From: Candidatus Heimdallarchaeota archaeon
Lineage (GTDB): Archaea > Asgardarchaeota > Heimdallarchaeia > Hodarchaeales > Hodarchaeaceae
NCBI GenBank assembly: GCA_019057635.1
Contig: DXJL01000025.1
Span: 1-37,801, forward strand
Length of the DNA stretch: 37,801 nt
Reading direction: 5' to 3'
In this document: in pieces, positions 2,209 through 16,649 of the stretch
Layout: each line of letters opens with the position of its first letter
How positions within the stretch are numbered: the stretch's first letter is position 1
The notes under the pieces: model-generated
What the model was told of the DNA's origin: nothing
Databases searched by the model: none
What the model saw: the letters and a program-made list of their open reading frames with translations, nothing else
Position numbers and translations under genes: made by a program

Positions 2209-3183
2209 CTAGGGTTGACTAGAGTTGATTTTAATTCTTTGCTGACACATTGGACACTGATTGAATACTTTTAACCATTCTAACAAATGTGTTCGATGAA
2301 AGACATTTCTACATTCGGGACATATCACTTTTTGTTCACGTGAACCAACAGACTGCCGACATATTACACAATAATCTTGGGTTTCAGTAATGCTCCCCCA
2401 CGAATATGTATCTGAATCATGATGAACTTGAACATCCCCCACGATAATTATATTTTCCCCTGTATCATCTCGTTTCAGTGTTCCATGTAATTCCCCATTG
2501 TCAAGAGCATGTTTTATAACCCGTTGTACAAGGGATGAGTCAACCATTAATTCAGGAAGGTCTTTTTGAATACAATAGAATAAGTATCCCAGTTCAACTT
2601 CATTTTGAGGACGATTTATTCGCTGATTAATGCTGGAGAACAAAAAGTTTCTTGTTTTGGCTAATAATATAAGATTTTGGTGTTTTTTATCAATTTCAAG
2701 CAGGACATCCTCCGCAGAGTCGATTACAACTTGTAGGAGTTGTTGTACCTCAGAGGATTGAAAGGGATGTGCAGATAAATACGTTTCACGTTTAGATTGC
2801 TCTAGGAAATCAGAAATCGTTTCATTATATCCCTGTACCTGACGTAACACTTTATCAACGTTCACAAGTAACTGAAGGGGTTCAATCATATCAACTGAAA
2901 CAAAAATTTGTTGAATATCTAACCTTCTGTCGTTGAGTTCCCCAAGATAACGTGACACTTCTGTGAAAAAAGGTTGGCGAAGAGATTGGTTTATTATATG
3001 GCCAAATATAACACTAAGAATTATTATTATTACTATTATCAATTGGTTATTGAATGTACTCATACCCGTATTAAAGAACATGAAAAGAAAAATAAGCCCT
3101 GAAATTGTGGCCAAGAAAAGAATGATATTGCCTGTTGTCTTTTCTCGTGATAAACGGGAAAGTTTACTCACACTAGTCGTCAT
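2209..3183 (-). CDS. Membrane-anchored RING-type zinc-finger protein (putative E3-like)
   Basis: The protein has 324 residues from the ATG at 3183. A TTG at 3225 would add 14 residues, but GGTGG lies just upstream of the ATG. Two transmembrane helices sit at about residues 19-37 and 47-65. A long helical middle follows, with a winged-helix-like stretch (VELGYLFYCIQ to NIIIVGD). The C-terminus carries eight metal ligands: C272, C275, C288, C291, H296, H299, C310 and C313. This C-x2-C-x12-C-x2-C-x4-H-x2-H-x10-C-x2-C pattern, with FH and LEWL between ligands, resembles RING-CH/RING-variant domains such as those of LTN1 or FANCL. Such domains in eukaryotes recruit E2 enzymes; Asgard archaea are known to encode ubiquitin-system genes. 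No E1, E2 or ubiquitin is in this window, so E3 activity is inference. Confidence 0.7.
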   Translation of the reverse strand: MTTSVSKLSRLSREKTTGNIILFLATISGLIFLFMFFNTGMSTFNNQLIIVIIIILSVIFGHIINQSLRQPFFTEVSRYLGELNDRRLDIQQIFVSVDMIEPLQLLVNVDKVLRQVQGYNETISDFLEQSKRETYLSAHPFQSSEVQQLLQVVIDSAEDVLLEIDKKHQNLILLAKTRNFLFSSINQRINRPQNEVELGYLFYCIQKDLPELMVDSSLVQRVIKHALDNGELHGTLKRDDTGENIIIVGDVQVHHDSDTYSWGSITETQDYCVICRQSVGSREQKVICPECRNVFHRTHLLEWLKVFNQCPMCQQRIKINSSQP

Positions 3184-3296
3184 GTAGCCACCGAATAGGT
3201 CTAAGGGAATGAGTCGAAGCTTCAAATAATAACGGCCATTGAATTAATAAAAAGTAGACTAGTTAATAATTCCGCAATAATTTTCATATTTTGAAA

Positions 3297-4265: not shown

Positions 4266-4360
4266 TATCAAAAAGATTTAAGGGAGGAGATTTAATATAC
4301 TTACGTATCTCCTTTCCCTTGAAGTTCAATCTTACTAAACTGAAGGAGCCAAGAAAATCA

Positions 4361-5143
4361 ATGGTTCGTCTCAAAGCGGTCTATTTCATTACTGATGATG
4401 GGTTTAACATTTATAATCAATCCTTTGAGTCAACAGATCAAGATCAAGATATGGTTAGTAGTTTAATATTGGCATTACAAACATTCGGGAAGGAAGTTAT
4501 GTCAGAAAATGTTTTACAGACGGTGGGTTTTAGGGATGTTAGCGGGAAAAACACCGATATCGAAGGGAAAGACACAGAGGGGACACGAATGATTCTTGAA
4601 CAGGGGGTTAAAGTGAATGCTATCTGTTTTGTTGTCCTTGATAAGGATAATGCAGAACGAGAAGAATACATCTTACGTGGACAACTTCTGAAAATTATAA
4701 AAGAAGTCGAAGAAAAATATTCTGAAGAATTAAAGGATCCTATCTTTAGAAAAAACGCTTTCACAGGGTTAGAAACGCTTATTAATACCCGTTTCTTCCG
4801 TGACAAAATGTCTCGTATTTACAAACAGCAATACGCTAGTTTAAATGAATATTTAAAGTATCCAAGATCCCTCCTATTCGAACTGACGCCAAGAGGAATA
4901 AAGACCTACAATTTCTACCGTGACTATCCAGAGGTTCAGCAAAAAATGAAAATTATTGCTGTAGAAGAGTTAGATGGGCTTATTGACGATATAGAGGAAC
5001 GGAGTAGTATGATATCCTTTCAAGATTGTATTGAACGCTTTGGAACTGATCGAAGCGGGGAAATTCTTGAATTACTGAAATTGTTGACAAGAAAGGGGGT
5101 ATTTGACGCGTATAACTTTGAACGAGTGAGTATCACCGCGTAA
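4361..5143 (+). CDS. Longin/roadblock-like domain protein with C-terminal helical/winged-helix region
   Basis: The protein has 260 residues from the ATG at 4361, preceded by AAGGAG about 12 bases upstream; an upstream TTG at 4319 is possible. The first ~120 residues (LKAVYFITDDGFNIYNQSF, then a DMVSSLILALQTFGKEV helix, then strands ending in ICFVVLDKD) follow the beta-hairpin, helix, beta-strand order of longin/roadblock domains that bind small GTPases. The remainder is helical and ends in a winged-helix-like unit (MISFQDCIERFG, LELLKLLTRKGVFDAYNF). The first domain has the same rhythm as the middle domain of the MinD-like protein at 32057-33748. It is convergent with the coiled-coil gene at 5157. 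Family name unknown; the GTPase-partner role is inferred. Confidence 0.6.
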   Translation: MVRLKAVYFITDDGFNIYNQSFESTDQDQDMVSSLILALQTFGKEVMSENVLQTVGFRDVSGKNTDIEGKDTEGTRMILEQGVKVNAICFVVLDKDNAEREEYILRGQLLKIIKEVEEKYSEELKDPIFRKNAFTGLETLINTRFFRDKMSRIYKQQYASLNEYLKYPRSLLFELTPRGIKTYNFYRDYPEVQQKMKIIAVEELDGLIDDIEERSSMISFQDCIERFGTDRSGEILELLKLLTRKGVFDAYNFERVSITA

Positions 5144-5156
5144 GTGATCAAGTATA

Positions 5157-6032
5157 TTAAGATCCCCTCATATCCTTCAATGCTTTTAAGATTAGTGCAG
5201 TTGTTTTCTTACTCTCCTTCTCCATTCCCTTAATTGCCGAAATCAACTTAGTATCTACAGCTAAATTAATTTCATTCTTTATGACTTCAGGTAATTGAGT
5301 AACGGACTGATTTAATCTCTCTACTACTTGAGATAATTTTTGAATACTACCATCTTGTACCACAAGTCGCTCGGTGACTGATGTTTTAAGCTCATTTACT
5401 GAGTTTTCGAGATTTATGTTAATATGATCACGTAAGGATGCTAATTCAACTTGGATTATCGCGCTCACCCTATCTCGAAGATCGGCCACTGTTGCTAGTT
5501 GATCAGTCTGATTTTCGATCAAAGAATTTAGATTACTTTCCATCGTTTTTAAGTCATCAGAGATAGATACGAAGCTATTAATACTCACTTCATACTGATT
5601 ACTTGTTTTTTCAGTGGAATTATGAACCATAGTGGTTAAATTTTCTGATAATACCTTCATCCGTCCCACAACATCATCGACGTAACCAGCTTTTATAGTA
5701 TTAAGATCTTCTTCAATTTTCCTCTCTGTAGATTTGAAAGTAGTCTCTAGTTCATTTAATGTTGACTCCAGTGTGGTAAGGACAGGTGGTAGTTGAGCGA
5801 TAGAGGCGAGAAGTTCTGGATTAAGTCCCTCATAAGACTCCTGCACATGTCGAATGATGGTTCGAGCACTTTCTTGGAATTTTGAATCAATCGCTAGGGC
5901 AACATCAGAAAAATTACGAATGGAGGTTTCAAGTTCTTGTCGGATTTGAGAAACATCCTGACTCTGCTGAAGCATTTGAAAGATCTGCATACTTACGTCA
6001 AATATTTGTTTCAGGCTTTCTTCGATTCCCAA
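5157..6032 (-). CDS. Coiled-coil protein, unknown
   Basis: This is a 291-residue protein that is almost entirely amphipathic helix, with heptad-like runs such as LTTLESTLNELETTFKS and LNSLIENQTDQLATVADL. No signal peptide, membrane helix or cysteine motif is seen. The organisation recalls the long helical hairpins of chemoreceptor signalling regions or tropomyosin-like rods, but the conserved chemoreceptor tip is absent. The start is a TTG at 6032 with AGTGAG close upstream; an ATG at 5990 is the alternative. It lies 156 bases downstream of the 335-residue gene and may have its own promoter (TATA-like box at 6141-6150). Position suggests a structural or scaffold role with the tubulin-like GTPase cluster. 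Function unknown. Confidence 0.75.
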   Translation of the reverse strand: MGIEESLKQIFDVSMQIFQMLQQSQDVSQIRQELETSIRNFSDVALAIDSKFQESARTIIRHVQESYEGLNPELLASIAQLPPVLTTLESTLNELETTFKSTERKIEEDLNTIKAGYVDDVVGRMKVLSENLTTMVHNSTEKTSNQYEVSINSFVSISDDLKTMESNLNSLIENQTDQLATVADLRDRVSAIIQVELASLRDHININLENSVNELKTSVTERLVVQDGSIQKLSQVVERLNQSVTQLPEVIKNEINLAVDTKLISAIKGMEKESKKTTALILKALKDMRGS

Positions 6033-6140
6033 GTTCTCACTTCACTCTTCTATCCCAATATTGATTGGTAACAGGTGGTGATAATTTTACTAAAGGTGTA
6101 TCTACAATAAGTTTTCTATTTATTATTGGACTACGAAGTA

Positions 6141-6150
6141 ATTTAAATCC
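6141..6150 (-). promoter_or_regulatory. TATA-like box for the coiled-coil gene at 5157-6032
   Basis: On the minus strand this reads GGATTTAAAT, a good match to an archaeal TATA box. It would place the transcript start near 6118 and give a leader of about 85 bases. It lies in the 156-base gap between the last two genes of the cluster. Confidence 0.3.
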
Positions 6151-6188
6151 ATACAAACACGAGATATAAGTATATAACGTATTAGATT

Positions 6189-7196
6189 TCATTTAAGTCG
6201 TCTTAGTAATACAATATATCTATCATTCTGCAAAATAGCATTATTTAATCTGTGAATTAGGACAATTGTCTCGGAATACACAAATTGTCTGAAATCATTT
6301 CCTCTAGCGAGCTGAAATTCTTTTTGGATGTCTTTCACAACAGAAAAGGATATATTTGGAATCCTAGATTCTAAATCACCTGGTCCCAGATTATATTGCT
6401 GGAGGACTGAAGTACTGATGCGTATTGTGTCCTGTAATGTACGATTTCCATTGAGATAGTCTGATGTATTGGATATATATTTTTTTATGATGTTTTGAAT
6501 AATTAATTCTTCTGAAGCATCCAATTCTATCTTACTCTGTAATGGGAACATCTTTTTTAAGTTCTGCAATAATCTGGCTGCAGGCGCTTCTCGTAGAAGC
6601 TTAAAAATCAAATCTTTAATTTTTATACATGGAAACTGTATGATTTCATGAGAATTAGGGTGTGAAATTTCTTGTGTTAGAGCATATCTTTGAATTTCTT
6701 TACACCCATGGAGATAAAAAGTGGGGAAGGCTAGATTTGATAAATTCGCATAAGAATTCATTAGTGCGTCAATGGACTCAATTATACCCCATTTGTCAAT
6801 TAGACTTTCATACCTATTGAAATTTTTAATTATTTCTTTATTCTTTCCTACTAGGGTAGAAGTATCATCAAATTGTTCAGTTTGATCGATAGTATCAGAT
6901 ACTCCAATAATTTCAGTAAGTTTGAGATCTAACTTTTCTACAAGATCCATAAAAACGGGTTTTGCTTCTTTTAACGTTAACAAATTAGGCAAAGCTGAAT
7001 GAACTGTTCTTAATTCCTTGTACAATCCATCAGGGATATTTTCTCGGTTACTGATATACGAACTGAGTGTAATAATCAAATTCAAACTGGTTAGATTTAA
7101 ATTGATTAGGAAATCTAATTTGTTCTCTAGCACTTCAAGAGGTCTCTGATTTGAAGAATGACCTTCTGGGGGATGTTGATCTTTATTAAAATTCAT
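6189..7196 (-). CDS. Helical protein of unknown function in the tubulin/FtsZ-like cluster
   Basis: This 335-residue protein starts at an ATG. It looks soluble and mainly alpha-helical, and no known motif, metal site or nucleotide-binding site is recognised. The first ~20 residues are polar and probably disordered; helical stretches rich in leucine and isoleucine follow (for example LDFLINLNLTSLNLIITLSS). The C-terminus is basic (LLRRLK). It lies 43 bases after the tubulin/FtsZ-like gene on the same strand, so co-transcription is likely. Function unknown; a regulator or adaptor of the GTPase is a guess from position only. Confidence 0.7.
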   Translation of the reverse strand: MNFNKDQHPPEGHSSNQRPLEVLENKLDFLINLNLTSLNLIITLSSYISNRENIPDGLYKELRTVHSALPNLLTLKEAKPVFMDLVEKLDLKLTEIIGVSDTIDQTEQFDDTSTLVGKNKEIIKNFNRYESLIDKWGIIESIDALMNSYANLSNLAFPTFYLHGCKEIQRYALTQEISHPNSHEIIQFPCIKIKDLIFKLLREAPAARLLQNLKKMFPLQSKIELDASEELIIQNIIKKYISNTSDYLNGNRTLQDTIRISTSVLQQYNLGPGDLESRIPNISFSVVKDIQKEFQLARGNDFRQFVYSETIVLIHRLNNAILQNDRYIVLLRRLK

Positions 7197-7239
7197 AGTG
7201 ATAATTTACCTCTTTACATATCTACTCAAATGATCTATA

Positions 7240-8610
7240 TCATTTTTTTGCCTGGTTTTGTTCAGGTGTAATATAGTAGCCAAACAATTTTTCGAGATCG
7301 CTTACGGCATCCTCTAATTCTTGTTTTGTTGTACCTTTTGAGCGTTTAAACCAGTGTTGTTTCAATTCTGAGTCACCACTGTGTAAACGTATCAACGCTT
7401 TTGCTTCTTCTAATATATCATATAATTCTGGTATTCGTGGTAGGCCAAACAACAACAAAAGAGAGGCTCGTGCTTTCTCATCATCATAGGCACAATAAGT
7501 TGGGGAAATACTTGCACCTTTAGCCAAAAAAGGACTAAGAGCTTTTTTCAATAATGGATCAAATTCAACTCGTGCAATTTCTTTAGGTCCACTCAATACG
7601 GAAAATACTGAGGAAGCAGCGGGGTTTGTTCCCATATTAGTTAAACTGCAATGTGCTGCGGTGTACTCAACTGCTGCGGCTAATTGGTGCCCTACTTCTC
7701 CTACTTCAGGGAAAATGGATAAATCATCAAACATCGCGGGAACAACCACACTATCCAGTTTGAGTGCGAAATCTCCGATATCTGTGGTGGGTAAGACCTC
7801 TTTACCTAGCTCAGGTACGCCTGGTGAGAGCATTTCTGCAATAGATTCAAGAGCTAGCGGATTTATAAGTTCAACAAATGCTTCTTCCATCTGAACGGGA
7901 AGAGGGGTTGTAGTTTGACCTAAAACATTCGGTCTGGTCACATTACTATCTAATGCTGTGAGATCCAGTCCCTTCTCCCGAGTTAATAAATCAACCGCTT
8001 CTCCCCTTTGCATACTTAACACGCGACTCAACATAGTATTATTTGAAAGGAGAAGGATTAGATCAGGACCCATGTTTCCTTCCTCTAATTGTAATCGAAG
8101 AAGTTTTGATAAAGCCCATACACTGTTCACAGCTTCAGATGATTGGTTTACGAATGGCAAAACTCCAAAGACATAAATGAAAATTTTTCGCTTCTCTTGC
8201 TCTGCAAACCTTTTTCGCAACAGGCGAATTAAGGCGGGAGTGCCTCCACAACCTGTTCCTCCTCCAAAACTTGTGAAAATGCAAAAACCACTGATTCCTT
8301 CATAGCCCAATGCCTGCAATTGATTTAAAATAATATCTTCCGAATTAATCACTGATTCATACCCAGCAGAGAATTTTCCACCCACCCCAATTTCTGCATC
8401 TGAATAAAGCAAAGTACGCTTTGATGAAATAGAGTACTTTTTTCGTGCTTTTAATAAATCTCCTCTATCTGTATTCATCACTAAATATTCACGTATACGT
8501 TGTGGAAGTTCTCCTTTCTTGGATTTAGCTAAGTAGCTACCTACTAAATTACTTCCGCATTCTCCGATTCCTATAGCAAAAATTTCACTTTCTGTTTCTT
8601 CCATCGTCAT
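7240..8610 (-). CDS. Divergent tubulin/FtsZ-superfamily GTPase
   Basis: This is a 456-residue protein with an ATG start and GGTGG eight bases upstream. The N-terminal GTPase domain has the expected order: strand 1 and T1 loop GIGECGSNLV (14-23), the NTDRGDL loop (46-52), GVGG (75-78), and the tubulin signature loop FGGGTGCGG (115-123), with cysteine in place of the usual serine or threonine. FGVLP (148-152) fits strand S5. TTDIGDFALKL (275-285) is a candidate T7 loop, where a D-x-x-D pair could supply catalytic acids. It is longer than typical FtsZ cores, and the C-terminus (from about 400) is charged and helical. It is neither clearly FtsZ nor CetZ nor eukaryote-like tubulin. It lies 14 bases after the giant helical gene. 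Polymerisation and GTP hydrolysis are inferred from the family. Confidence 0.85.
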   Translation of the reverse strand: MTMEETESEIFAIGIGECGSNLVGSYLAKSKKGELPQRIREYLVMNTDRGDLLKARKKYSISSKRTLLYSDAEIGVGGKFSAGYESVINSEDIILNQLQALGYEGISGFCIFTSFGGGTGCGGTPALIRLLRKRFAEQEKRKIFIYVFGVLPFVNQSSEAVNSVWALSKLLRLQLEEGNMGPDLILLLSNNTMLSRVLSMQRGEAVDLLTREKGLDLTALDSNVTRPNVLGQTTTPLPVQMEEAFVELINPLALESIAEMLSPGVPELGKEVLPTTDIGDFALKLDSVVVPAMFDDLSIFPEVGEVGHQLAAAVEYTAAHCSLTNMGTNPAASSVFSVLSGPKEIARVEFDPLLKKALSPFLAKGASISPTYCAYDDEKARASLLLLFGLPRIPELYDILEEAKALIRLHSGDSELKQHWFKRSKGTTKQELEDAVSDLEKLFGYYITPEQNQAKK

Positions 8611-8624
8611 ATCTGATCCACCTA

Positions 8625-11600
8625 TTATTTTAGCACCATGCCAGATTTAATTTCAATAAATAATTTCATCACTAATGATAAATACGCTCCAATGACTTTG
8701 TTATGGGGATAAGTCTCCATAATCTTCTTGGATATCTCTTTAAATTGTCTTTTATTCTCTTCAGTGTTATCTGTGGGTAAGTAACGAGCACGAAACATTC
8801 GAAAAGCACTATGCCATCGATTTAATTGAATAGACACCTTTTCCCACTCCTCCCGCTGGCTTTCAATTCTTGGGAAAAGATCTAATATAAATCGTAAATC
8901 ATGTGAATTCATTACGTCTGCTCGATCTTCAACTAATTTTGACAAAGGAAATATTTTCTCCGATGCTTCATCGGAATACTTTTTGAAAACCTCTTGAATG
9001 TTTGAATAATAGTCTAAAGTCCCTAATTTGGTCTGTAAATTCGAATTTAGATCTTTTTCGAATACTTTCATTATTTCAACTACAACGGCCCTTATTTGAC
9101 TTAGTCTAATAATTGCCTGAGTCAAATGATGGACATGATTAGTGGTAGCAATTCGTTGGAAATCACTTAAATATGCAAAGTCAATTCGGTCATCTGTACG
9201 TATATCAATCTGAAAAGAAGCGAATAAATACTCAATTGTGTCTTGGATCTCTGCAATATATCGCTCTCCAGTTGTACGAATTGCATTACAGGCATTATTA
9301 TCATTTTGTAACTTATCTATTTCCACAAAAACCTCAGTAATTTCTCTCAGATGGACATCTTCCTGATGTTTAACTATGACTTGTGAAAAAACTTCAATAT
9401 ATCCTCCAACAAACTCAATTATATTGATACCTACTTCCTTGAGGTCATTAACATTTTTCAGGACTTTTCGTGATTCTGAGACTCCATGGGATAATAAAAC
9501 CGCAACAATTTCTGTATCATAGAAATATATCAATTCCCTCAGATTATGAGCTAACCTCTCGTGAGAAACTTCTTCTGGTTCAAAATTGTAGATTTTTTGT
9601 TCTGCTGCAAAAACACTATCACTGAGTGGAGAGATTTCATGAATTCGAGGAAGACTGACTCTTAACCAATTATAGAGATTCTGGTGTAATTTTGTAAGAG
9701 AATCCTTTGCTAATTGCATGCTTTCGAGACTGTAACTTTCATAGCTATCAACTAAACGTACGATATCCTTGTGCGTTTTTATTTCCTCTAATTTTTTCTT
9801 CATCAGCCCAAGTGGTTCTTCGAAAAATGCAGAATATTGAGGGGGGAGTTTGGAATAATCTTGTATATGCGATGTTATTTCTCGATTCATTAATTCAGTC
9901 AAAGTAGAAATCTTTCTGTCAATGTATGTTAATAATTGCCAATATTCCGTTAATGCTTCTGAATAGTCCAAATTCTCGAAATCACTATCTGTTGTGTAAC
10001 TAACGCTACTCGTTCCAGATTTCATTAATCTGAAAAGTCTTTTATCCACAGCTTCCAGTCCATCAAGTTGTTTTTTTAATTCCACCAAAATTTCTGTTTT
10101 CATTTCTTCAATGGAGCCTAAAAACGTAACATATTCACGAACGATGGCTTCAATATTCCCTATCTCAGCATGACTGTCGATTAATTTTACTATTTCATTT
10201 CGTTTCTCTCTAAGATCAAACCGTGTTTCGATAGGAATTAACGGAAAAGAAATACCTTTGATATTTTCCCGAATACGTGTAGAGACTTTATATTTCCAAA
10301 TCGAAATCTTCTCAAACTCATCTAATAGATTCTTGATTTTATCTTGAGTGGAAATCTCTATTTCTTCTCTAATCGATTTAAGATCTTCTAATTCTAATTT
10401 AGGGACATGAGATTTTAGTTTTGGCGGGATAGTCTCCAAAGTAGTGATTTGGTTGCTGATTGGATGAATTTCGCGATCAATTGCAAGCCAGATCTCACGT
10501 CGTATCTTGGCGGATAATTGATTCAATTTGTCTATTTCTTTTACAAGATCACGAACTTCTTTTTCGTCTTCACTTACATACTCCCGCAGATGTTCTATTT
10601 CCTCTTTCAAATCATCAGGTAATACAGCCTTCAAGCTTTCACGAGTGTCATAAAGACTTATTAGATTTTGACGTAAATTTTGTTGCGCTGGTTTCGAGAA
10701 ATAAGCAACTAATCGTGCTTCCCAATCCTTAATTTCTCTGGCTTTTGTTACTAATTCTCCAGGAGAAAGTACTTCAAAATCTTTCACAGTGGGAATCGGA
10801 GGCCCGTCAGTTAAACTAATAGCCTCCTGAATATGGGGATTTTCAAGCATCCTGAAGAAATAATTTTGGCATTCAGCTGCAAGTGCAAATCTGAAGTCGT
10901 AGTAACGTTTCACTAATTCTACCCACATTTGAAGTTCGTTTGTCTTCTCAGTTTCTTTTTCAATGCTTCGAACGTCATTTATAAAATCTTCAGGGATTGG
11001 AAATTTCATAACTTGTAGCGTTTTCGCAGCATTAATCAGTTCAGCCGTGCTAACCAATTTTTTCAATGCAATAATTAACTTTGAATGCCATGAACGAATT
11101 CTTTCAATATCTTGTATAATAACAGGTATTTCAGCCGCAGATACATCAATATTTGGTACCGAAACCATGGAAGAATCGATTTCGTCGTCCCCAATTAGTT
11201 GAATAATTCTCCCAATTTGATCTTCGGTTTCTGTCTTCAATGAAATCTCATAAGTTCTTAAAGAATTGATGAATTCATTTTTCAGAACGCTTAGCCTCTT
11301 TTCTAATTCGATCAGCTTTTCTACTGAGGTACTTGAATCTGCATCACTTTGAATTTCCTCTATATGTAGTTTAAGCGTTTCTATATTGCTTGAAATCTGT
11401 ATACCGATCGAAGAAATCGTTCCAAGATGTTGATGCAGAGTTGATGCCATACGAACAATTTCGGCTTGGATTTTTCCTTCTGTTCCCTTTCTTCTCTGTT
11501 TCAAATAAGCATTTTCTGCTTCTAAGTTACTGTAAAGTTCCAATAGGTCTGAAATTGTCATTACATGAATACTTGCCTTTGAAGTCTGGCTAGAGATACG

Positions 11601-12146
11601 AATTTTCTCCTCATCGAAGTTAACAAATTTACCATATAACTCAATAATTTCGCGATTGAAAAGAAAAATGGAAATATTTTTCCCTTTCAATACTTCGGCT
11701 ACCTTATTATATATTGTAACTACTGAATTGCTAAATTTCAGGACAAGTGCAGTTTCTAAACTAGGGATTTGAATGCTCTTAATGTTCTCAGTCTCTTGGG
11801 GAACAAATTTGGCAATTTCTTTGATATTTTTTGCGAGATCAAAGTAAATTCGTCTAAATCCTGCAAGAACTGTATTCAAAAGGTTCTCTGTAGTTTTATT
11901 GTACCGGTTTTTCTTCTGAGAAAGGGATTTCCTCAATCCCCTCCTCTTAAAAAAGCCTGCAGTTGTTAAATCTTTCTCTAGTTTTTGAATCTGTGTAATT
12001 AATTTTTGGGATTCATTTAAAGAAGAAATTACCTGTACGGTGGGGTCGATTGATCGTAATTCTGTTGCCACAACACCTAATTCATGAAGATCTATTTTAG
12101 ATACAAGAGAATCTTCCGTCGTTTCCAAAGACATGATATTCAACAT
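8625..12146 (-). CDS. Giant alpha-helical/coiled-coil protein (1173 aa), unknown
   Basis: The protein has 1173 residues from the ATG at 12146; another ATG four codons later is possible. Nearly the whole length is charged amphipathic helix, with many Leu/Ile heptad-like segments and proline-containing breaks (for example LPPQYSAFFEEPLG), giving a look of successive helical-bundle units as in spectrin- or tether-like proteins. No signal peptide, membrane helix, Walker motif or zinc site is seen. A short basic patch (FFKRRGLRKSLSQKKNR, near residue 70) could contact membrane or nucleic acid. It sits directly upstream of the tubulin/FtsZ-like gene with a 14-base gap, strong evidence for co-expression. 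It could be a filament cross-linker, membrane tether or scaffold; this is inference from context. Confidence 0.8.
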   Translation of the reverse strand: MLNIMSLETTEDSLVSKIDLHELGVVATELRSIDPTVQVISSLNESQKLITQIQKLEKDLTTAGFFKRRGLRKSLSQKKNRYNKTTENLLNTVLAGFRRIYFDLAKNIKEIAKFVPQETENIKSIQIPSLETALVLKFSNSVVTIYNKVAEVLKGKNISIFLFNREIIELYGKFVNFDEEKIRISSQTSKASIHVMTISDLLELYSNLEAENAYLKQRRKGTEGKIQAEIVRMASTLHQHLGTISSIGIQISSNIETLKLHIEEIQSDADSSTSVEKLIELEKRLSVLKNEFINSLRTYEISLKTETEDQIGRIIQLIGDDEIDSSMVSVPNIDVSAAEIPVIIQDIERIRSWHSKLIIALKKLVSTAELINAAKTLQVMKFPIPEDFINDVRSIEKETEKTNELQMWVELVKRYYDFRFALAAECQNYFFRMLENPHIQEAISLTDGPPIPTVKDFEVLSPGELVTKAREIKDWEARLVAYFSKPAQQNLRQNLISLYDTRESLKAVLPDDLKEEIEHLREYVSEDEKEVRDLVKEIDKLNQLSAKIRREIWLAIDREIHPISNQITTLETIPPKLKSHVPKLELEDLKSIREEIEISTQDKIKNLLDEFEKISIWKYKVSTRIRENIKGISFPLIPIETRFDLREKRNEIVKLIDSHAEIGNIEAIVREYVTFLGSIEEMKTEILVELKKQLDGLEAVDKRLFRLMKSGTSSVSYTTDSDFENLDYSEALTEYWQLLTYIDRKISTLTELMNREITSHIQDYSKLPPQYSAFFEEPLGLMKKKLEEIKTHKDIVRLVDSYESYSLESMQLAKDSLTKLHQNLYNWLRVSLPRIHEISPLSDSVFAAEQKIYNFEPEEVSHERLAHNLRELIYFYDTEIVAVLLSHGVSESRKVLKNVNDLKEVGINIIEFVGGYIEVFSQVIVKHQEDVHLREITEVFVEIDKLQNDNNACNAIRTTGERYIAEIQDTIEYLFASFQIDIRTDDRIDFAYLSDFQRIATTNHVHHLTQAIIRLSQIRAVVVEIMKVFEKDLNSNLQTKLGTLDYYSNIQEVFKKYSDEASEKIFPLSKLVEDRADVMNSHDLRFILDLFPRIESQREEWEKVSIQLNRWHSAFRMFRARYLPTDNTEENKRQFKEISKKIMETYPHNKVIGAYLSLVMKLFIEIKSGMVLK

Positions 12147-12161
12147 TCCAGAAATTTAGAA

Positions 12162-12192
12162 CCTAGTCTTCTTTGATAATTTCTATACTAGG
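12162..12192. repeat. Short inverted repeat upstream of the tubulin-like operon
   Basis: CCTAGT (12162-12167) and ACTAGG (12187-12192) are perfect inverted copies separated by 19 bases. The flanks extend the symmetry imperfectly (GAA on one side, ATGTTC on the other). They lie just upstream of the ATG of the 1173-residue gene, so an operator or leader hairpin is possible. A chance match is also possible. Confidence 0.25.
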
Positions 12193-12390
12193 ATGTTCTT
12201 AAATAATGAAATAATATTGTCAAAATATAACTTTCCATTCAAAAAGAACAGAATGCCTAATTAGAATGGACTGAATGAAAACATGAATAAACTGATAATA
12301 CTGTTTTTATTATTTCCATTATGATTTCTGATATAACACCAAATTTTTTTTAGAACTGGCCAATTCGAGGAAAAGACGGAAAAAGAAAGC

Positions 12391-12396
12391 AGGTGA
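12391..12396 (+). promoter_or_regulatory. Ribosome binding site that decides a CTG start
   Basis: AGGTGA lies six bases before the CTG at 12403. An in-frame TGA at 12394-12396 blocks any start further upstream. No ATG, GTG or TTG occurs between it and the conserved family core, so this site selects CTG as the start of the CinA-like gene. Confidence 0.55.
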
Positions 12397-12402
12397 AGCA
12401 GA

Positions 12403-13227
12403 CTGAACATAAGCACGGCCAATGCACTTTTAGTTTCAATAGGGAATGAACTACTTTCTGGACAGACAGTTAATACAAATGCAAATTATCTTGCGAAAGA
12501 AATGACCCAAATGGGGTTTTCTGTCTTAAAAATTATTACAATTCCTGATTCAAAGGAAATCGTCTCCTCAGAAATTAAAAAATCATTATCTGAGGGTATC
12601 TACAGAGTTATATTAATTACAGGTGGTTTAGGTCCAACTTGGGATGACTCAACCGCGAGTTTCTTGGCTGAGACTTTAAATGTTCCTTCTATATTAAACT
12701 CTGAGGCATTAGCCCTTGTTACTCAGCGTTATAAAGAACTATATGAACAAGGATTAGTTGAGTCGGCAAAGATAACATCAGCTAGAAAAAAAATGGCTTA
12801 CCTACCTGAAGGAACTAATACCATCTATAATCCTGTTGGAGCAGCTCCAGGAATCATTTATAAAGATTCTATCAACAATACAATGCTTTACTGTTTACCT
12901 GGAGTTCCTAAAGAAATGAAGGCTATGTTCTCAATCCTTATCCCTGAATTAAAAATGATTAGTGCACTTGAAGAATCCTTTTACTTTGAAACCGAATTCT
13001 TTACCTCTTTCACAGATGAATCCATACTAGCTCCCTTTTTATTAAAAATAAGAGAAAAATATGATGTATGGATAAAATCTTTACCAAAATCTTATCAGGA
13101 AGAAGAAAATATTCATCTTATTATTTCAAGTAAAGGAAAAACTCAAAAAGAAGCTAAATCATTAGTATTTAAAGCGCGTGATTATCTTTCTGAGTTAATC
13201 TCAGGAGGAGAAATAGAGGAGATCTGA
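12403..13227 (+). CDS. CinA N-terminal/MoaB-fold (molybdopterin-binding-like) protein, CTG start
   Basis: The protein has 274 residues if read from CTG at 12403. The N-terminal core matches the CinA/MoCF family: ALLVSIGNELLSGQTVNTN at residues 8-26, then ITGGLGPTWDDST, an LPEGTNTIYNPVGAAPGI segment, and LPGVPKEMKAMF. The first ATG in frame is at 12502, but starting there would delete the conserved GNELLSGQ..NTN motif, so the true start must lie upstream. The C-terminal pyridine-nucleotide amidase domain of bacterial CinA is absent, as in other archaeal members. These domains relate to nicotinamide-nucleotide/ADP-ribose hydrolysis or molybdopterin handling; the exact substrate is not shown by the sequence. 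It is followed by a T-run and then cdc48. Confidence 0.8.
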   Translation: MNISTANALLVSIGNELLSGQTVNTNANYLAKEMTQMGFSVLKIITIPDSKEIVSSEIKKSLSEGIYRVILITGGLGPTWDDSTASFLAETLNVPSILNSEALALVTQRYKELYEQGLVESAKITSARKKMAYLPEGTNTIYNPVGAAPGIIYKDSINNTMLYCLPGVPKEMKAMFSILIPELKMISALEESFYFETEFFTSFTDESILAPFLLKIREKYDVWIKSLPKSYQEEENIHLIISSKGKTQKEAKSLVFKARDYLSELISGGEIEEI

Positions 13228-13370: not shown

Positions 13371-15677
13371 ATGTCGAATAATAATAGTAAAACTCTAACA
13401 TTGAAAGTAGCTGAAGCCAATCAAAGTGATGTTGGACGCGGATTAGTACGTGTAGACTATGCAATCATGCGTGATTTTGGTTTAGAAACTGGTGATATCG
13501 TTGAACTTTCCAGTGAGAGAGCTGGAGCACGTAAAACGGGTGCATTAGTAATCCCAGGAAGGCGTGAAGATCGTGGAAAAAAAATCATTAGATTGGATGG
13601 ATTGATTCGAGGGAATGTGGGAACCAGTTTAGGTGAAACCATCACTGTTAAACCAATTAAAAAACGTGTTGCAAAGAAAATCACAATAGCACCAGCAGAG
13701 GAGCGGATTCGATTGTTAGTACGATCCGAAATAATTCGTGAACGACTTCAAAACCGTCCAATTTCGCGTGGGGACCTTCTTGTAATAACTGGACAAATCC
13801 GTAAAATCCCACCCTCAGGTGCATCTACTGGGGTTGGTATGGATGATTTCATATCACGTTTCTTTAATACTACTAGTAGTCCTGTTAGTTTAGGTGAAAT
13901 TAAGGTAGTCGTAGCTTCCACGGATCCTGAAGGAATAATAATTATTGGAGAAAGCACAGAAGTAAGGATCATAGAAGAAGCGCCTAAAGACCTTCGCATG
14001 CTACCCAGAGTAACTTATGAGGATATTGGAGGACTTTCAGAGGAAATCAAACGAGTTAGAGAACTGATTGAGCTGCCTATGAAGCATCCAGAACTTTTCC
14101 AGAGATTAGGCATAGAACCTCCCAAAGGTGTTTTATTACATGGACCACCTGGTACTGGAAAAACATTGTTAGCAAAAGCTGTGGCAAACGAATCAGGGGT
14201 TAATTTTGTATCTATTGCTGGACCTGAAATTATGTCCAAATTTTACGGAGAGAGCGAACAACGAATCAGGGAAATTTTTCAACAAGCAGAAAAAGATGCA
14301 CCAAGTATTATTTTCATAGATGAACTTGATTCTATTGCTGTTAAACGTGAAGAAGTTACGGGGGAGGTAGAGAGACGAGTAGTTGCTCAATTGCTTGCTC
14401 TCATGGACGGTTTGAAAAGTAGGGGGAAAGTTATTGTAATCGGAGCCACAAATCGACCGAATGCATTGGATCCTGCGTTAAGACGTCCAGGGAGATTTGA
14501 TAGAGAAATTGAAATTGGGGTGCCAGATCGCAATGGTAGATATGAAGTTCTGCTTGTCCATACACGTGGAATGCCAATCGCTCAGGATGTGGATTTAAAG
14601 GAGTATGCTGCAAAAACACATGGATTTGTTGGCGCAGATATCTCTGCCCTTACAAAAGAGGCTGCTATGCATACCCTCAGGAAAATATTACCACAAATTA
14701 ATTTCGATAAACCGTTAACACCAGAAATTCTCTCTATACTCGTTGTTTCCAAAGAAAATTTTGATGAGGCATTAAAGATAACAGAACCTTCCGCAATGAG
14801 AGAAGTAATGCTTGAAATTCCGAACACTCGCTGGGAAGATGTAGGAGGATTAGGAGCTGTCAAACAACAATTGATAGAATCAGTAGAATGGCCTATCAAT
14901 CATCCTGATATTTTTGACAAACATGGGGTTAACCCTCCTCATGGTATACTTCTTTATGGCCCCCCTGGAACTGGAAAAACCTTACTAGCTAAAGCTGTGG
15001 CAACAGAGAGTCAAGCTAATTTTATTGCGATACGTGGTCCTGAATTACTTTCTAAATGGGTAGGAGAAAGTGAAAAAGCTGTTCGTGAAATTTTCCGTAA
15101 AGCCAAACAAGCTTCTCCCTCGATTATTTTCTTAGATGAGCTTGATGCAATTGCTCCCCGACGAGGAGCTTTTAGTGGAGGAAGCTCTGTTATGGAAAGT
15201 GTAGTCAATCAAATTCTATCCCTTCTTGATGGGTTAGAAAGTCTACAAGATGTAGTAGTCTTAGCAGCCAGTAATCGACCAGATATGATTGATCCTGCAC
15301 TACTACGTCCAGGGAGATTTGATCGTTTATTACTTGTTCCTCCACCCGATGTGGAAAGTCGAATCAAAATTTTCGGCATTCATACAAAGGGGATGATAAT
15401 AGGAAAAGATGTTGATCTAGATACTTTTGCTTCGGATCTTGAAGGATATGTTGGGGCCGATATTGCTGCTATTTGCCGTGAAGCTGTCATGATTGCACTA
15501 CGTGAAGATTTGGAAATTAAGGAAATCTCTTTGAGGCATTTTAATGCCGCAAAGAACGTAATTCATCCAAGTGCAAATGATCAAATCGTCAAGGAATTTG
15601 AGGAACTTGAGAAAAAATTATTGGGTAAGTCAGAAATTGCTCGTAAGGATATCTTAGACATAAGAGGATATCTTTAA
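13371..15677 (+). CDS. cdc48: CDC48/p97/VAT-type AAA+ ATPase
   Basis: The 768-residue protein has the normal length and domain order of archaeal VAT/CDC48. An N-terminal double-psi-barrel and CDC48 domain 2 region occupies about residues 1-200. Two AAA+ modules follow, with Walker A motifs GPPGTGKT near residues 257-264 (D1) and 529-536 (D2), and Walker B motifs IIFIDELD and IIFLDELD. Both carry the second-region-of-homology pattern with RPGRFDR. It unfolds or extracts proteins in the cytosol, feeding the 20S proteasome. The start ATG gives the expected N-terminus. The C-terminus ends DIRGYL, so I see no clear HbYX proteasome-docking tail. It has its own upstream TATA-like box after a T-run, so it is probably monocistronic. 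Confidence 0.97.
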
Positions 15678-15713: not shown

Positions 15714-16649
15714 TTAATCTTGTGATTTGGGCTTATAAATATCTAAAGGCCATTGACGCTTAATGAGTTTAGTTAAAACTTGCGAACTGAACTCACCAAT
15801 TTCTATAGATGCACTTGCGGTATTCATAAGGCGTTCTGCTATTAATTTAGATCGGACAACAGAATCTGAATAACCTATTATTAACCCAACAACCAACGGA
15901 TGATTTTTCACTACTACTAATTGCAAATCGGAAGCAATTATTACTTCCATTCCTGCAGGTTCTTTTAGAAGATCATGCATAGTTTCTGAAATGCTCTTGT
16001 TGAATTCGTTAAGGATTTCGTTCCCAAGGGAAGTATACTTAGTAGTCCAGATTTTATGTGAATCTAAATCAATTAGAATAACAACTCTTAATTTACATTT
16101 AAACACTGATTCAGACCCTACTACAACATCAGCTAACCAATCAAATGCATCGTAAAAATTCTCACCCGTCTTTGCAGATATTCTGAAAAGCCCAACTGGT
16201 CGAGACGAACGGGTGGCGAGTGTTAAATCTAAATCTTGTACGATAGTATCAAAAGCACGGGCACCAGGAAGATCAATCTTGTTTGCTATGAATAAGACTG
16301 GAGCTTGTTCATTTTGTTTCATGGATTCCCAAAAGGCTGCCGAAGCTTCAGTAATTCGAAGATCTGCACTATCTAGCACAAATACAATCGCATCTGCTTT
16401 TTCAAGTGATGGTTGCCAAAGTAAATTGCGATAGATTTCCTGTCCCCCAAGATCTATTAAACTAAACATAATTTGACGATATTTTACGGTTCGATAGTTA
16501 ACACCCAATGTCCTGGTTGTAGGTATAAACTCGGAACGTAACAGTCGATTTACAATGGTAGTTTTACCCGCACTGTCAAGACCAATAATGACAATTTGAT
16601 GCTGTTGTTGGTCTTTTCCTTTGAATATTCTTCTGAGAATGCTCGACAT
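15714..16649 (-). CDS. Arf-like small GTPase with C-terminal longin/roadblock-like domain
   Basis: This is a 311-residue protein. Residues 1-180 form an Arf/Arl-type G domain: G1 GLDSAGKT (23-30), a G2 threonine near 47, G3 DLGGQ (66-70, the Arf-type GGQ), G4 NKID (123-126) and G5 SAK (158-160). Residues from about 184 form a second domain (LRVVILIDLDSHKIW strands, an ISETMHDLL helix, EVIIASDLQLVVVKNHPLVVGLIIGY strands, a final helix) whose order resembles longin/roadblock folds that normally act as separate partners. Canonical Arf proteins end near 180 residues. No obvious N-myristoylation signal (MG) is present, although the N-terminus is amphipathic and basic. It lies divergent from the gene at 16868. 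The G domain is certain; the tail assignment is moderate. Confidence 0.85.
   Translation of the reverse strand: MSSILRRIFKGKDQQQHQIVIIGLDSAGKTTIVNRLLRSEFIPTTRTLGVNYRTVKYRQIMFSLIDLGGQEIYRNLLWQPSLEKADAIVFVLDSADLRITEASAAFWESMKQNEQAPVLFIANKIDLPGARAFDTIVQDLDLTLATRSSRPVGLFRISAKTGENFYDAFDWLADVVVGSESVFKCKLRVVILIDLDSHKIWTTKYTSLGNEILNEFNKSISETMHDLLKEPAGMEVIIASDLQLVVVKNHPLVVGLIIGYSDSVVRSKLIAERLMNTASASIEIGEFSSQVLTKLIKRQWPLDIYKPKSQD

Follow-up and report, generated by a model that had tools for sequence, protein, structure and literature searches.

The locus considered here raises the question of whether a divergent tubulin-superfamily gene belongs to one of the known filament families or forms, with its neighbors, a dedicated system of its own. 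Asgard archaea are the closest prokaryotic kin of eukaryotes, and within them the Hodarchaeales have been put forward as one of the lineages nearest to eukaryotes. The window, i.e. the whole analyzed stretch of 37,801 nucleotides from a Candidatus Heimdallarchaeota archaeon of the Hodarchaeales, contains the four open reading frames on the minus strand that an earlier note had described, at the same positions. The operon starts with a giant helical protein of 1173 aa (8625..12146), followed by the tubulin-superfamily GTPase, here termed X (456 aa; 7240..8610), and a 335-aa helical partner (6189..7196); behind it lies the gene of a 291-aa coiled-coil-like protein with a TTG start codon (5157..6032). 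The junction between the giant and GTPase genes is indeed only 14 nt long (8611..8624, minus strand) and has a Shine-Dalgarno-like aggtgg just 5' of the GTPase ATG; the following gaps are 43 nt, between the GTPase and 335-aa genes, and 156 nt, between the 335-aa and 291-aa genes.

The divergent intergenic region upstream of the giant gene (12147..12501, minus strand) is the probable operon promoter, judging by its TATA-like stretch gaaagttatatttt. Another TATA-like stretch lies in the 156-nt gap upstream of the 291-aa gene. The two stretches together suggest a three-gene transcript (giant, GTPase, 335-aa), with the 291-aa gene probably on its own transcript. The dN/dS values calculated against two close relatives are 0.02–0.15 for all four genes, hence these are real genes under strong purifying selection.

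Several other genes of the window are of interest in their own right. A small GTPase of the Arf family (15714–16649, minus strand), which at 311 aa exceeds the usual Arf in length, adjoins a Cdc48 AAA ATPase (13371–15677, plus strand); the two accompany the module in near relatives but not elsewhere. A 274-aa gene that converges on the 291-aa gene (4319–5143, plus strand) is also limited to near relatives; it has no match in Pfam or NCBIfam, and visual inspection suggests a longin- or roadblock-like N-terminus. A 338-aa protein (2209–3225, minus strand) has a C-terminal RING-H2 finger (PF13639, 28.9 bits), here in an archaeon.

The assignment of X to the tubulin superfamily as a divergent member holds: it matches the Pfam Tubulin domain (PF00091) with E=7.5e-17 and 62.7 bits (cut-off 33), and GGGTGCGG is found at residues 116–123. 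Against the FtsZ equivalog model TIGR00065, X reaches only 30.1 bits (cut-off 295.2), and it stays below the cut-off of Tubulin_2 (PF13809; 20.6 bits, cut-off 27), with only 52 residues covered. The T4 signature loop GGGTGCG, delimited by alignment and column counts (residues 116–122; 8245..8265, minus strand), has a Cys in the position of Thr/Ser in FtsZ and tubulin, and this Cys is kept throughout the family. The T7 (synergy) loop TTDIGD occupies residues 275–280 (7771..7788, minus strand). Its two acids, D277 and D280, correspond to the candidate D-x-x-D noticed earlier and are present in 55 and 56, respectively, of 58 aligned rows, a few of which are non-family sequences. By its motif and its position after helix H7, this loop is the likely counterpart of the FtsZ NxDxxD loop. 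The motifs conserved across the 58 rows are G-x-G-E-C-G in T1, G-V-G-G in T3, GGGTGCG in T4, S-N in T6, and T-T-D-x-x-D in T7; the few departures from them include rows of non-members.

To which family of the superfamily X belongs was addressed by profile comparison and phylogeny. In profile-profile ranking the best match is CetZ (5e-13), followed by tubulin (2e-10), FtsZ (5e-9), and then two other Heimdall GTPase groups; strong iterated-profile matches across all tubulin-family groups were taken as evidence at the superfamily level only. Among solved structures, the nearest in sequence are 4b46, 4b45 and 3zid, which match the N-terminal domain only; 4b46 and 4b45 were deposited as FtsZ, and we take them to be Haloferax CetZ. 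Profiles of the tubulin family align confidently with X over the first ~210 residues only, and the same N-terminal limit applies to the CetZ profile, so that a CetZ-type C-terminal region was not recognized in X. As the C-terminal half has no confident alignment, the filament contacts of X could differ. A tubulin-like H11–H12 hairpin was considered for the end of the protein on the basis of a weak collinear match (E=0.0012); it was dropped as unsupported, the profile search of solved structures having returned no tubulin.

In a tree of 50 proteins under the LG+C20 model, X forms a single clade (100/100) on a long stem. The groups monophyletic without X are 11 Asgard FtsZ (100/100), five CetZ, haloarchaeal only (100/99), and the tubulins, comprising alpha/beta, Atub and Odin sequences (100/100). 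Thus, in the phylogenetic check proposed in the earlier note, X falls inside neither the FtsZ nor the CetZ clade. In the best reduced tree, with the fastest rows removed, X joins the tubulins weakly (88/84), and none of the alternative sister groups was rejected (p-AU 0.24 for X+CetZ, 0.11 for X+FtsZ, 0.17 for X+Y). We conclude that X is a distinct lineage of the tubulin superfamily, neither FtsZ, CetZ nor true tubulin. One could still regard X as a plain Asgard CetZ that sits in a conserved neighborhood by chance, as CetZ is both its closest profile match and its best PDB match and the X+CetZ clade is not rejected by the AU test. We consider this quite improbable, given that the sampled CetZ group together without X, that X has a long stem of its own, that only the N-terminal GTPase domain aligns, and that the best reduced tree places X, if weakly, with tubulins.

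The Y group belongs to a different tubulin-superfamily operon, observed in one Hodarchaeales genome and otherwise in other Heimdallarchaeia. It encodes a ~380-aa GTPase (Y), a second, very divergent GTPase (Z), and a protein of ~430–465 aa that has several hydrophobic stretches but matches nothing in Pfam; genes for a zinc ribbon and a pyruvate kinase are often found alongside. Y and Z form one group (100/100) apart from X. Examples are L034:481-4055 (genome G002), L037:3922-10331, L039:7254-11106 and L042:4375-8304, with similar loci in L036–L049.

Does X take the place of FtsZ? The module had been described as separate from ordinary FtsZ, in line with the position of X outside the FtsZ clade and with the single ordinary FtsZ gene located elsewhere in the same genome, on contig 152. 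The 12 Hodarchaeales genomes searched (G000–G009, G012, G013) have a single FtsZ each, and no SepF (PF04472) was found in them, a divergent SepF being possible; within the same class, SepF is present in two genomes from a different family. From the Hodarchaeales pattern one could argue that X and its partners fill a missing ring function, X being a second division GTPase that acts as a component or modulator of the Z-ring beside FtsZ, and the giant being a regulator of the EzrA/ZipA kind. However, SepF accompanies one or two FtsZ, mostly two, in 13 of 13 sampled X-bearing genomes of other families, hence X is an addition and not a replacement. Moreover, the module is not located beside division or ribosomal genes, and a role in division seems unlikely to us.

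The partners of X have no recognizable domain, as had been suggested: the giant, 335-aa and 291-aa proteins yielded no credible match in Pfam, NCBIfam, PHROG or PADLOC. The giant comprises three parts, a conserved N-terminal region (~40–360), a repeat rod (~190–755), and a C-terminal domain (~1041–1160). According to the conservation profile, the C-terminal ~120 residues are the best conserved and contain the motif Y-Y...W...WH...YL. The repeat unit is helical and comprises ~131–135 residues. When the family profile was compared with itself, off-diagonal matches appeared at ~126–142 and ~264 residues (best E=2e-10; the best match of reversed profiles used as a control was 1.7e-3). A 903-position model built mostly from shorter giants matches Hodarchaeales giants in two pieces, both of which use positions ~234–370, and the giants have lengths of about 896, 1173 and 1311 aa, differing by approximately one or two repeat units. 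The self-matches, the doubled use of the model and the length steps indicate a tandem repeat whose copy number changes between lineages. Domain models of Pfam and other collections detected no known domain in the giant, and in a profile search of solved structures, made with the whole protein and with the C-terminal domain, no match rose above chance level; neither EzrA nor spectrin matched it in Pfam or in that search.

The 335-aa family (300–360 residues, helical) has a conserved C-terminal domain (~125–335 in the family alignment). It has no match in Pfam and, in the profile search of solved structures, only chance-level matches for the whole protein and the C-terminal domain. The helical character that the earlier note had attributed to the giant and the 335-aa protein agrees with their structure models, which contain helices only, at low confidence (pLDDT 50.6 for the AF2 model of the giant, too poor for assigning a fold or a rod, and 45.6 for the 335-aa protein). 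The alignments used for these models were composed of the window and genus-level relatives only, which partly explains their poor quality. None of the module proteins reaches a transmembrane-like hydrophobic mean (maximum KD19 1.47), so that any membrane attachment would be peripheral.

Profiles of X, the giant and the 335-aa protein constructed in this analysis were used to search 228 Asgard genomes. They were found in 71, 70 and 68 genomes, respectively, and all three in 65. Genomes with an incomplete trio are drafts, and in the readable cases the missing or partial member is at a contig end or is a fragmentary gene. A Fisher test of the co-occurrence takes no account of common descent, and its value was not counted as support by itself. 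The module is present, at least in part, in 14 of 14 Hodarchaeales and in five families outside their class (f9, f10, f11, f26, f28); among the 228 genomes, it is absent from other Heimdallarchaeia. The giant and X genes share one strand in each of 43 loci, mostly at distances from -82 to +69 nt. In a comparison of seven windows of ~14–21 kb from six families, single-sequence phmmer searches detected the trio in every pair, and other genes were common only to closely related or sister families, apart from two marginal hits. Distant lineages thus have, within ~19 kb, essentially nothing but the trio in common. The flanks are CinA/Cdc48 in Hodarchaeales; elsewhere they are unrelated, with a CoA-ligase-like gene in f28 and f26, an M24 peptidase in f11, and MetRS in f10. 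The trio is inherited vertically as a unit, which establishes a functional link and is not proof of physical contact.

The synteny search suggested in the earlier note thus upheld two of the three proposed partners, the giant and the 335-aa protein being kept beside X across the phylum. The 291-aa gene occurs in eight of eight near-relative loci of a Hodarchaeales genus group and in none elsewhere; with this restriction, its TTG start and the 156-nt gap with a TATA-like stretch, it is an accessory gene outside the conserved core and not the core member it had been thought to be.

Within the trio, the giant–X pair forms the core, since it is duplicated without the third gene: three Hodarchaeales genomes have a second giant–X pair (53–54% identity for X, ~22–26% for the giant) and no second 335-aa gene. 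The pair is split by 4.3 kb in B3_Heim and by ~10 kb in YT2_065, and the 335-aa gene does not abut it in G218 (~8 kb off) or in G219 (~0.2 kb). The module tolerates separation of its genes and yet stays in the genome. The DNA between giant and GTPase contains a 1202-aa open reading frame without Pfam match in B3_Heim (L018:5723-9991), and an AAA ATPase with several unassigned open reading frames in YT2_065 (L019:155-10000 and L055). No terminal repeats were found at these two insertions.

The genomic data bear on two further readings. With three components, a filament GTPase and two partners, the module resembles a TubZRC-type system for DNA segregation, in which one helical partner would bind a centromere. 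This is highly improbable, as the surroundings of the operon contain no array of iteron-like repeats, no helix-turn-helix domain was found in the partners, X has no match in plasmid, phage or viral-contig records, and the module is chromosomal and stably inherited.

Alternatively, X could be a non-polymerising GTPase switch that loads and unloads the giant, a long membrane or vesicle tether. Asgards are rich in small GTPases and trafficking-like genes. The giant is long and helical, has a variable number of repeats and no transmembrane segment, and an Arf-like GTPase and Cdc48 are encoded nearby in Hodarchaeales, all of which would suit a tether. On the other hand, these two neighbors are not conserved beside the module elsewhere, and essentially every copy of X keeps the T7 acids, which in the tubulin superfamily act across the subunit interface. 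We therefore hold the switch improbable.

We propose, with about even confidence, that the trio is a vertically kept Asgard cytoskeletal module, in which X forms GTP-driven filaments, the giant is a rod that cross-links or tethers them, and the 335-aa protein is an adaptor. In this partly inferred scheme, X would assemble head-to-tail into GTP-bound protofilaments, and GTP would be hydrolysed with the help of the T7 loop supplied by the adjoining subunit. The giant would be an elongated rod with its length set by the repeat number; its conserved C-terminal domain may bind X, and the rod could bundle, space or tether filaments, by analogy with EzrA and FtsZ. The 335-aa protein might serve as an adaptor or regulator of the X–giant assembly. 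The cellular role of the module would most likely be in cell shape or internal organization and not in the main division ring. More tentatively, and with appreciable doubt, we suggest that the module represents a further tubulin-superfamily cytoskeleton in much of the Asgard phylum, passed down vertically since an early ancestor of the Asgards and closer to tubulins than FtsZ is. Its GTPase would be obligately paired with a tandem-repeat rod that changes length by gain and loss of repeats, and the pair would have originated independently of the eukaryotic system of filaments and associated proteins.

Among known systems, the closest is the Asg.Tub group of uncharacterised CetZ-like paralogs from Heimdallarchaeia and Lokiarchaeia (Santana-Molina et al. 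2023, PMC9871819). That study placed Asg.Tub on a branch of its own, with an unstable position between CetZ and tubulins, noted coiled-coil genes of unknown function among its neighbors, and called the neighborhoods unrelated between groups. Judging by the published description, X very probably corresponds to Asg.Tub; the range of X covers the Hodarchaeales and five families outside their class. The main text of PMC9871819 has no conserved trio of giant, GTPase and helical protein, no repeats in a giant, and no phylum-wide co-inheritance. As to the novelty considered in the earlier note, no description of the conserved three-gene module was found in the open-access literature (preprints were outside the scope); for the GTPase the novelty is narrower than implied, as Asg.Tub with its coiled-coil neighbors had been reported.

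CetZ, the tubulin-like protein of archaeal cell shape, is like X archaeal and additional to FtsZ, and its N-terminal domain is the closest by profile; however, it forms a separate clade, there is no confident alignment between it and the C-terminal half of X, and five CetZ loci have no giant or 335-aa neighbor annotated within 1.5 kb. AtubA/AtubB and OdinTubulin belong, like X, to the Asgard members of the superfamily, and X is weakly joined to them in the best reduced tree. True tubulins were found in 3 of 228 Asgard genomes, the published figure being about 1% (PMC13394414); the genomic context of AtubAB is not conserved according to the same study, in contrast to that of X. Roughly one in three of the Asgard genomes sampled contains the module, and, in contrast to the rare true tubulins, it has a conserved context from which its partners can be read. 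It is a candidate, open to direct testing, for a cytoskeleton that is widespread in Asgards and additional to FtsZ, ESCRT and actin. FtsZ1/FtsZ2 with SepF share the GTPase domain family and loops with X, but the genomes that encode X have FtsZ as a gene of its own. The FtsZ-like families with Tubulin_2 (PF13809) are also tubulin-superfamily GTPases with unusual partners, although X scores below the cut-off of that model. EzrA, a spectrin-like regulator of FtsZ (PMC4243239), provides a working analogy, being a rod of helical repeats that acts on a filament of the tubulin family; the giant has no sequence match to it, and it differs in its repeat of ~131–135 residues and in lacking a transmembrane anchor. 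The module may be an instance, beyond eukaryotes and the bacteria that have EzrA, of a tubulin-family filament that is served by a repeat rod of its own.
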